Source: Acidimicrobiia bacterium (GTDB lineage Bacteria; Actinomycetota; Acidimicrobiia; IMCC26256; JAMXLJ01). Taken from it: a stretch of DNA of 64,000 bases. How positions within the stretch are numbered: the stretch's first letter is position 1; every line of letters begins with the position of its first letter. The stretch spans positions 1 through 64,000 of the forward strand of contig JAMXLJ010000085.1 in the NCBI GenBank assembly GCA_024281095.1, in the 5' to 3' direction. The notes below the pieces were generated by a model. It was not told the DNA's origin. It made no database searches and saw only the letters and a list, made by a program, of their open reading frames with translations. Position numbers and translations under genes: made by a program. This document shows, in pieces, positions 8,133 to 10,165 of the stretch.

Positions 8133-8166
8133 GAGAACGCGCCGTCGTATCGCCGCGGAGGTGCCG

Positions 8167-8955
8167 GTGAGTTACGCCATCGAAGGCAAGCGGGTGCTCG
8201 TCACCGGAGCATCGACAGGGATCGGCGCCGCACTCGCAGAGGGCTTCGCCGCCCGCGGCGCGGTCGTCGGGATCTGCGCCCGGCGCGCCGCGCTGCTCGC
8301 CGATGTGCTCGACCGCGTGCAGAAACATTCACCGGAGTCGCGCGCCTGGACCGTCGATCTGTCCGACCTCGATACGGTCGAGGCGTTCGCCCGTCGCGCC
8401 GACGCGGAGATGGGCGGCGTCGACGTGCTCGTGAACAACGCAGGCGCACCGAAGCGCCGGAAGGTCACCGATCTCACGCCGGCGGTCGTCGAGTCGATCA
8501 TGGCGCTCAACTACTTCTCGCCCGTCCGCCTCACGCTCGCTTTGCTCCCCGGGTTGATCGAACGGCGGGGTCGCATTGTGAACATCTCCTCGATCGCGGC
8601 CCGCCTCGGGCCACCCGGTGAGGCCGCGTACGCGGCGACCAAGGCGGCCCTGACGGCATGGTCGGAATCTGCGGCCGTCGACCTCGCCGACACCGGGGTG
8701 AAGGTGCACGTGGTCGCACCCGCGGTGATCGACACCGACCTGTTTCATCTCCCCGATAACGATCCGGCGATGACCGAAGGCGTCGACGCGTTGCCGACGG
8801 ACGCGATGGTTGCGCCCGTGCTCGCGCAACTGGAGTCGGGCGCGTTCGAAACCTACGTACCCGAGTCGTTCCGCGACATCGTCGTCGGCAAGTTCCAGAA
8901 TCCCGAAGCCTTCATGGAAGGCACCATCGCCTACGCGCGCTCGCACCGCAGCTAA
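8167..8955 (+). CDS. Short-chain dehydrogenase/reductase (SDR)
   Basis: A 262-residue SDR with TGASTGIG near the N-terminus, NNAGAPKRR, the Ser of IVNISSIAA and the YAATK catalytic pair. The C-terminal part (FRDIVVGKFQNPEAF) matches SDRs annotated as ketoreductase or dehydrogenase of broad type. I prefer the GTG at 8167 because GGAGG at 8157-8161 is correctly spaced from it; an in-frame GTG at 8161 would overlap that ribosome site. It is divergent from the SDR/LLM operon and shares its palindromic site. Immediately downstream is the repeat-bounded DUF559 cassette. Confidence 0.88.
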   Translation: MSYAIEGKRVLVTGASTGIGAALAEGFAARGAVVGICARRAALLADVLDRVQKHSPESRAWTVDLSDLDTVEAFARRADAEMGGVDVLVNNAGAPKRRKVTDLTPAVVESIMALNYFSPVRLTLALLPGLIERRGRIVNISSIAARLGPPGEAAYAATKAALTAWSESAAVDLADTGVKVHVVAPAVIDTDLFHLPDNDPAMTEGVDALPTDAMVAPVLAQLESGAFETYVPESFRDIVVGKFQNPEAFMEGTIAYARSHRS

Positions 8956-8962
8956 CCCGGCA

Positions 8963-9080
8963 TTCCGGCGTCGTTTCACGCGCACAATGCGCGCCATTCG
9001 ACGCCGGAAGCACGCGGGGCGGACACTTCCCGGTTCTGGCGTCACTTCACGCGCACAATTCGCGCCATTCGACGCCGGAA
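8963..9080. repeat. Left pair of 47-bp palindromic repeats
   Basis: Two 47-bp imperfect palindromes, at 8963-9009 and 9034-9080, are separated by 24 bp (71-bp pitch). Each has outer arms of the form TTCYGGCGTC and GACGCCGGAA; unit 1 also has an inner CGCGCA-CAA-TGCGCG hairpin. The second unit ends 3 bp before the stop codon of the DUF559 gene. The pair is repeated in inverted orientation at 10048-10165 on the other side of that gene. Confidence 0.85.
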
Positions 9081-9083
9081 CGC

Positions 9084-10004
9084 TCAGGCGGCGTCGATCA
9101 GGAGCGAACGCAGGGCGCGGCAGAGGTCGATCGCGCCCGATTGCAGGTCAGGTCCCGTGACGTGAAGCACCCGCCACCCCAACGCCGTGAGGTCGTTTCG
9201 GCGACCGAGGTCACGCACGTATTTCGCCCGGCCTCCATGGTGCAGGTAGCTGTCGTACTCGATCGCGACCTTGATCCGCGGATATGCGATATCCGGGCGC
9301 GCCAGAAGGTTGCCGGCGTGGTCGACAATCTCGTACTGCAGCACGGGATCCGGCAGACCCGCGTCTCGAAGTGCCTTGAACAAGAGATGCTCTCGGACGC
9401 TTTCGGCGAGATCGGCCTGTGGGTGCCTTCGAGCGAGCACCGCTTTGAGCACACCGATCCCCCGGCGGCCGCGTTGCGACAGCTCCTCGACGCGCCGCCA
9501 CAGCTCGGCGAAGGCCACCAGGTCTCGCCGAAGTGCCTCATCGACGGCGAGCTCGAGCGTTGACTCGTGCAATACCGCGGCAGCATCGATCAACGTCCGC
9601 GCCGGAAGCGTCACCGGCACATCGGAGACGTCGACATCGTCGGGCGACCACGCCCGCGTCTCGTGCACGACGAGACCCACGTGACGCGCCCGTCGCCAAC
9701 GCGGTGTCGAAATCTCCGTGACGTGCCGCCTGGCACCGGGAAGGTCGTAGATGGCCAAGGCCGAGCGGTGCGAGATCGCTGCCGGCCCGGGAGCGGCTTT
9801 GCATGCCGCAGCCCCGAGGCCCCGCCAATCCGGTTCGGGGCCCGCGAGGCGGTACACACCGCGGAAGACCGCGATCCACTGCCCTGTGGAGACGCGATAG
9901 CCGCACTGCCTTGCCCTGAGGCCGCAGGCGAGCGCGTCGTCGAGCGTGAACGCGTGCTGCCGTTGCACCAGTCGAGCCAGTTTCCGATCCGCCTCCCTGC
10001 CCAC
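9084..10004 (-). CDS. AbiEi-antitoxin-like / DUF559 endonuclease-fold protein
   Basis: A 306-residue protein. The N-terminal part (about 1-75) has ALACGLRARQCGYRVSTGQW and FRGVYRLAG, typical of the AbiEi-type winged-helix antitoxin domain. The C-terminal part (about 215-300) reads DIAYPRIKVAIEYDS then RRNDLTALGWRVLHVT, the DUF559/Vsr-like PD-(D/E)xK nuclease pattern with candidate Asp and Glu metal ligands. No AbiEii toxin gene is adjacent. The start is a GTG without a clear ribosome site. The gene is enclosed by two inverted pairs of 47-bp palindromes, which suggests a mobile or selfish cassette. Function is unknown; nuclease activity is a fold-based inference. Confidence 0.78.
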   Translation of the reverse strand: MGREADRKLARLVQRQHAFTLDDALACGLRARQCGYRVSTGQWIAVFRGVYRLAGPEPDWRGLGAAACKAAPGPAAISHRSALAIYDLPGARRHVTEISTPRWRRARHVGLVVHETRAWSPDDVDVSDVPVTLPARTLIDAAAVLHESTLELAVDEALRRDLVAFAELWRRVEELSQRGRRGIGVLKAVLARRHPQADLAESVREHLLFKALRDAGLPDPVLQYEIVDHAGNLLARPDIAYPRIKVAIEYDSYLHHGGRAKYVRDLGRRNDLTALGWRVLHVTGPDLQSGAIDLCRALRSLLIDAA

Positions 10005-10047
10005 GGCGACATCGAATCATGTCCCTGTGACAGCCAACGCGCCGGGT

Positions 10048-10165
10048 TTCCGGCGTCAGTTGCCGCGCAGTATTCGCGTGAAGTGACGCCAGAACGCTCG
10101 GATGTCGCGTCGCACCGGTTCTGGCGTCAGTTGCCGCGCAATATGCGTGTGAAGTGACGCCGGAA
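10048..10165. repeat. Right pair of 47-bp palindromic repeats, inverted relative to the left pair
   Basis: Two 47-bp units at 10048-10094 and 10119-10165, again with a 24-bp spacer and 71-bp pitch. The reverse complement of the first unit shares its first 20 bases with the unit at 9034 (TTCTGGCGTCACTTCACGCG) and ends in the same GACGCCGGAA. The whole therefore forms 118-bp inverted termini around the DUF559 gene. The 24-bp spacers of the left and right pairs are not alike. Confidence 0.85.

Follow-up and report, generated by a model that had tools for sequence, protein, structure and literature searches.

We analyzed a 64,000-nucleotide stretch of DNA from an Acidimicrobiia bacterium (the window), which contains what is probably a two-part element. 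The element would consist of a gene for a palindrome-specific endonuclease and a family of palindromes of fixed length, 47 or 48 bp, that the enzyme is predicted to recognize. Judged from the sequences of this locus and its relatives, it looks like a repeat-plus-enzyme partnership that has apparently not been reported. The locus is organized as follows:

8161..8955, + strand, SDR gene on one border of the cassette site; at the empty sites of relatives it converges with the aldolase gene
8963..9009, outer left unit (47-bp palindrome), starting 7 bp past the SDR stop codon
9034..9080, inner left unit (47-bp palindrome), 3 bp past the nuclease-gene stop codon
9084..10004, − strand, nuclease gene, 306 aa, with a GTG start at 10004 and its stop codon at 9084-9086
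10026..10032, TGTGACA (TGTCACA in gene sense), between the nuclease-gene start and the inner palindrome
10048..10094, inner right unit (47-bp palindrome), on the upstream side of the nuclease gene, its center about 67 bp from the start
10119..10165, outer right unit (47-bp palindrome), ending 13 bp ahead of the aldolase stop codon
10179..11045, − strand, flanking class II aldolase gene, the other border of the cassette site

The initial annotation had placed four imperfect 47-bp palindromes at 8963, 9034, 10048, and 10119, and all four were recovered at these coordinates. Re-measurement also returns the reported 24-bp spacer and 71-bp pitch of both pairs and the 3-bp distance between the end of the 9034 unit and the stop codon. 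The right pair is inverted, as had been described: the 9034 unit is 83% identical to the reverse complement of the 10048 unit, the first 20 bases included. On re-reading, the cassette likewise contains no transposase and shows no visible target duplication. The window contains nine occurrences of the motif TTCYGGCGTC, where chance would give 0.74; eight of the nine lie inside the four units. The TGTGACA at 10026..10032 is a possible promoter or operator, and a motif resembling it is found in 24 of 92 homolog loci. Many homologs, L059, L061, L064, L065, and L021 among them, have a short GGTGTCACACC-like motif between the gene start and the inner palindrome.

The enclosed protein is composed of two modules. 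Residues 1–194 form an AbiEi-like DNA-binding module, with a wHTH and the AbiEi second domain, defined by profile and structure matches, and residues 202–306 correspond by structure to an EDxHD/Vsr/DUF559-like endonuclease domain. The AlphaFold model has a mean pLDDT of 92.4. Its 1–194 region matches the AbiEi antitoxin 6y8q (Z 11.7 over 182 residues), and residues ~200–306 match I-Bth0305I (3r3p, Z 11.4), NGO0050 (Z 10.9), and Vsr (1cw0, Z 8.7). PADLOC AbiEi models cover residues 6–181 (E 1.4e-25), and Pfam returns an AbiEi_4 match together with a weak match to the MTES_1575 nuclease. Among 81 family members, MTES_1575 is matched by 69, AbiEi_4 by 66, and DUF559 by 52; the window protein is not one of the 52 that match the PF04480/DUF559 profile (E 0.01), and the paralog C120 is over the cut-off. 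The initial label of the gene as DUF559/AbiEi-like is refined here to AbiEi-like with an MTES_1575/Vsr-like nuclease. Residues E205, D238, E249, H256, and D265 are conserved in at least 90% of family members, R268 is nearly invariant, and E249 is invariant in every aligned member.

The assembly that contains the window (4.39 Mb, 177 contigs) was searched for further copies with a weight matrix over the retrieved loci. This draft genome holds 37 palindromes of the same class, each exactly 47 bp long. Four of these are at the window gene and 33 are dispersed elsewhere; these copies and the same pattern in relatives contradict a purely local oddity. GGCGTC is invariant near the left end of the 37 copies and GACGCC almost so at the right end. 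According to a simple gene caller, the dispersed copies lie mostly a few bases after stop codons. By hand count, the classifiable copies comprise about 13 between convergent genes, about 11 in co-directional arrangement, and one in divergent arrangement. Two paralogs of the nuclease gene are also present in the genome, C79 with different palindromes and C120 with doubtful ones. No match to the Y1_Tnp/RAYT transposase family (PF01797) is found in the genome, and a RAYT explanation was rejected on this ground.

In orphan copies, the pairing between arms is strongest 14–19 positions from the center and near random at positions 8–9, a profile that a hairpin would explain no better than dyad-symmetric duplex half-sites on one helix face. 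Interior mismatches in the 37 copies are often uncompensated, which points to dyad-symmetric duplex sites no less than to hairpins. A strict RNA hairpin was rejected because of these interior pairs, which are often open. Paired units are also observed elsewhere, with a pitch of 93 bp at L044:3994/4087 and L036:2689/2782 and of 72 bp at L031:11346/11418 and L028:10303/10375; the 21–22 bp gap between the two pitches is about two helical turns.

Relatives were sampled one per species, mostly as draft genomes, many of them metagenome-assembled. Protein homologs are present in 51 of 61 genomes, and a covariance model of the unit finds matches in 25 of the 61 (the window's included), nearly always over 47 bp; the same-genus genome G001 is not matched. 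The homolog set comprises 92 genes, nearly all from Acidimicrobiales, the order to which the window belongs. Inspection of their flanks reveals palindromes at one or both ends of most of these genes, with a sequence that differs from gene to gene. A strong palindrome (16 or more of 21 pairs, located within 300 bp) accompanies 64 of the 92 homologs, and 28 have none at this threshold. Within 200 bp, 51% of homologs have a palindrome of at least 16/21 pairs on the upstream side and 47% on the downstream side, compared with 0.8% in distal 200-bp pieces of the same loci and 0% in dinucleotide shuffles.

The two ends of a gene carry matching palindromes. In 44 of 47 two-ended loci, chosen at a threshold slightly looser than 16/21, the locus's own ends are more alike than any cross-locus pairing. 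Furthermore, palindrome similarity rises with protein identity (Mantel 0.18, against a maximum of 0.11 in 1000 permutations). The length is constant at 47 or 48 bp whatever the sequence of the class. In the odd palindromes (47 bp, n=64), 70% are paired at position 23 and 35% at position 24; in the even ones (48 bp, n=15), the step is from 100% at position 24 to 46% at position 25. The scan scored pairs out to position 23, which partly sets the lower edge of this step and does not set the drop past 23/24. Dispersal is not restricted to the window genome: in G055, where one palindrome was searched in one genome, the class of its nuclease gene has 14 copies, two of them at the gene. In the wider phylum, homologs occur in 63 of 246 genomes, and outside the order the pattern is present in a weaker form, with both ends marked in 7 of 28. 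Several palindrome-like units in a row are observed around some homologs (L074 flanks, L101 flanks, L142 upstream, L203 flanks).

Genomes such as G057, G041, and G011 contain about 15–25 such units each, and a cognate gene was not found in them; at least one of these genomes is incomplete. This is in part the situation that the initial annotation had named as adverse to its proposal. Such units can be likened to REPs that persist after the loss of their RAYT. In G057, two units separated by 830 bp were considered as a further cassette and rejected, as the pair encloses a methyltransferase-like ORF that is no relative of the nuclease.

The position of the palindromes bears on two alternative readings. 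In the first, the palindromes are operators for AbiEi-like repression of the gene, the dispersed copies are regulatory sites or decoys, and the nuclease domain is used otherwise. AbiEi antitoxins do act on paired 23-bp inverted repeats to repress their own expression (PMC7319586), and in many homolog loci the upstream palindrome is located about 60 bp before the start. However, matched palindromes are about equally frequent at the 3′ end, and the dispersed copies follow stop codons, often between convergent genes, rather than promoters. We consider autoregulation unlikely as the explanation. The second, still less likely, is that ordinary hairpin terminators or RNA-stabilizing REP-like repeats have spread passively and lie at the gene ends by chance. 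The preference for positions just past stop codons is indeed that of REPs (PMC3733652), but the palindromes are also present on the promoter side, their class is gene-specific and matched at both ends, and internal pairing at positions 8–9 is near random in the 37 copies.

The match of the window protein to the AbiEi models of a defense collection raises a third possibility, a defense or addiction module in which the nuclease attacks DNA that lacks its palindromes, or is restrained by them. No AbiEii (DUF1814) toxin gene is found beside the window gene; the cassette contains a single gene, bordered by the SDR and aldolase genes. These neighbors are metabolic and form no defense island, and no phage match was found, which together make this possibility improbable. 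A phage origin was likewise rejected for want of any phage match.

The insertion site is informative on the history of the element. The window cassette sits between convergent SDR and aldolase genes, and the same arrangement is found in G001, G007, and G030, each with a different palindrome class. In G042 and G020 the cassette is absent and the SDR/aldolase junction measures 14 and 9 bp, respectively. A further genome scan, in which most matches are from Acidimicrobiia, added two filled and five empty sites, giving six filled sites with six palindrome classes and seven clean empty ones. Empty sites in relatives, which had been proposed as a check, are thus found. Syntenic strains that carry the gene without the repeats were not encountered, as all six filled sites have matched palindromes. 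One more SDR/aldolase locus has a 976-bp gap without a recognizable relative. No target-site duplication is seen at the window cassette; the empty sites belong to diverged species, so short duplications could have been lost.

In the protein tree, the SDR/aldolase members form one clade, together with members from G042, G045, and G002 located at other contigs or positions. G042 has no cassette at the SDR/aldolase site and two relatives elsewhere, and the congeneric G030 is filled. We read this as mainly vertical inheritance of the gene with loss and occasional relocation, in which both flanking palindromes appear to turn over together. The retention of the gene at one site across families argues against frequent mobility. 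The simple non-autonomous cassette of the initial annotation is not the best description, since the same site is occupied in several families and the gene seems to be inherited mainly by descent, although clean empty sites and relocated forms exist. A cassette moved by an unrelated transposase that recognizes the 118-bp inverted ends would agree with the inverted ends and the clean empty sites, but is very improbable given that, over many loci, every nuclease gene has palindromes of its own, that the nuclease active site is conserved, and that no target duplication is seen. As for the dispersed units, the single orphan examined in relatives (L041) has no counterpart behind the orthologous gene of either G001 or G007.

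We therefore return to the two-part element, for which a mechanism can be proposed. AbiEi binds as monomers to a pair of 23-bp inverted repeats with 3 bp between them and bends the DNA (PMC7319586), and a 47-bp palindrome is about the size expected for two monomers of this type. Two monomers of the window protein may thus use the AbiEi-type module to bind both arms of one palindrome, and the EDxHD/Vsr-like domain would then nick or cut at or near such palindromes. Copy repair of the break could homogenize the palindromes at the two ends of the gene, and the same repair may occasionally seed or convert palindromes elsewhere in the genome. The element would work like a REPtron with an unrelated enzyme, being inherited mostly vertically with occasional loss or relocation.

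The comparative sequence evidence that we count in favor of this model is the gene-specific matched ends, the dispersed copies, the turnover of classes, the constant length, the filled and empty states of one insertion site, and the conserved nuclease residues. Against it we count the 28 of 92 homologs without a strong palindrome, the weaker pattern outside the order, the unit-rich genomes without the gene, the paralogs C79 and C120 with other or doubtful palindromes, and the lack of observed target duplications.

A preliminary lead extends beyond this group. An approximate DUF559 consensus was used as a query against a plasmid collection and matched proteobacterial, deinococcal, and cyanobacterial genes. 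Genes from Azospirillum, Sphingomonas, Sinorhizobium, and Deinococcus aetherius are among those flanked by GC-rich hairpins, either on one side or on both; some of the hairpins carry a YGTC tag. Near the DUF559 genes there are 2.9 hairpins per kb, compared with 0.4 per kb in the rest of these loci, a difference that is in part a contrast between intergenic and coding DNA. Examples of DUF559 genes between same-type GC-rich hairpins in Alphaproteobacteria and Deinococcus are L155:1239-1868, L151:1425-1915, L149:1318-1849, and L162:1416-1827. The proteobacterial genes may show a related pattern, which we take as a lead only. This hint matters because the CGTC REPs are reported to have no dedicated transposase (PMC3733652).

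In E. coli, a near-perfect 45-bp palindrome ends at the start codon of the DUF559 gene ycjD (L169:1433-1477), and CCCTCTCCC-type repeats are located downstream of the gene. Of 5426 E. coli genomes, 3361 contain the ycjD palindrome, each as a single copy, so that it is not dispersed. The gene did not serve as a clean empty-site test, as two ycjD-less strains have an efflux operon after sapF and no clean junction.

Palindromes are commonly dispersed in bacterial genomes, and only the GTAG REPs have a recognized enzyme. A nuclease family located between its own fixed-length palindromes is a candidate for an alternative repeat-making enzyme, and such a partnership could explain the origin of some "orphan" bacterial repeats. 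It is conceivable, if rather tentative, that AbiEi/DUF559/Vsr-like nucleases are a widespread palindrome-making or palindrome-maintaining class parallel to the RAYTs, including the missing enzyme of the proteobacterial CGTC-type or GC-rich (YGTC-CCCTCTCCCC...GGGGAGAGGG) repeats. No literature linking DUF559 to repetitive extragenic palindromes was found among open-access papers. The many natural pairs of protein and site would also allow the evolution of specificity to be studied in dimeric DNA-binding nucleases, and the large families annotated without a role as AbiEi/DUF559 "antitoxin" or "endonuclease domain" would gain a possible function.

The element shares individual features with several known systems. 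EDxHD homing endonucleases, such as I-Bth0305I, which dimerizes on a nearly 60-bp target (PMC3943268), and Vsr have the same catalytic fold with conserved acidic and His residues. In contrast to these enzymes, the window gene has no intron or intein, is fused to an AbiEi module, and is accompanied by dispersed palindromes. The type IV toxin–antitoxin system AbiE shares the fold of residues 1–194, and its sites, arranged as 23-3-23 (49 bp), are of similar total length; the window system differs in having no AbiEii gene, an extra nuclease domain, and palindromes both at the two gene ends and dispersed.

The CGTC REPs described by Di Nocera (2013) are palindromic repeats scattered through genomes, with an arm that contains CGTC; the authors state that they lack a dedicated transposase (PMC3733652). 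The window units are likewise dispersed palindromes with CGTC in the arm. However, the CGTC REPs have a stem of 8–9 bp, a one-sided unpaired CGTC tag, and a CCA tail (PMC3733652), whereas the CGTC of the window units lies inside a paired 47-bp palindrome with GGCGTC/GACGCC arms, and many homolog classes have no CGTC.

The closest resemblance is to REP/RAYT systems (REPtrons, REPINs; GTAG REPs). There, a low-copy enzyme gene is flanked by its own palindromes, which are also dispersed between genes after stop codons and whose class depends on the species (PMC3733652); see also PMC2817692 and PMC3116915. The same traits are found here: an enzyme gene of low copy number flanked by palindromes that are also dispersed (window genome and G055), intergenic copies after stop codons, and a class that varies between species. 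The initial comparison with RAYT and REP sequences, in which a nuclease gene is accompanied by hairpins of its own, therefore stands as a description of the organization, given the matched ends of the homologs and the dispersed copies of the same class. It does not extend to the parts: the window enzyme is an AbiEi and EDxHD/Vsr-like nuclease, unlike the Y1/HUH transposase of REPtrons, and its units are 47 or 48 bp long without a GTAG tag, compared with 20–40 bp for REPs. With the defining RAYT absent, we do not classify the system as a REPtron, although the REPtron is its closest working analogy. Each known family tested fails on a defining feature, while the organization is REPtron-like.
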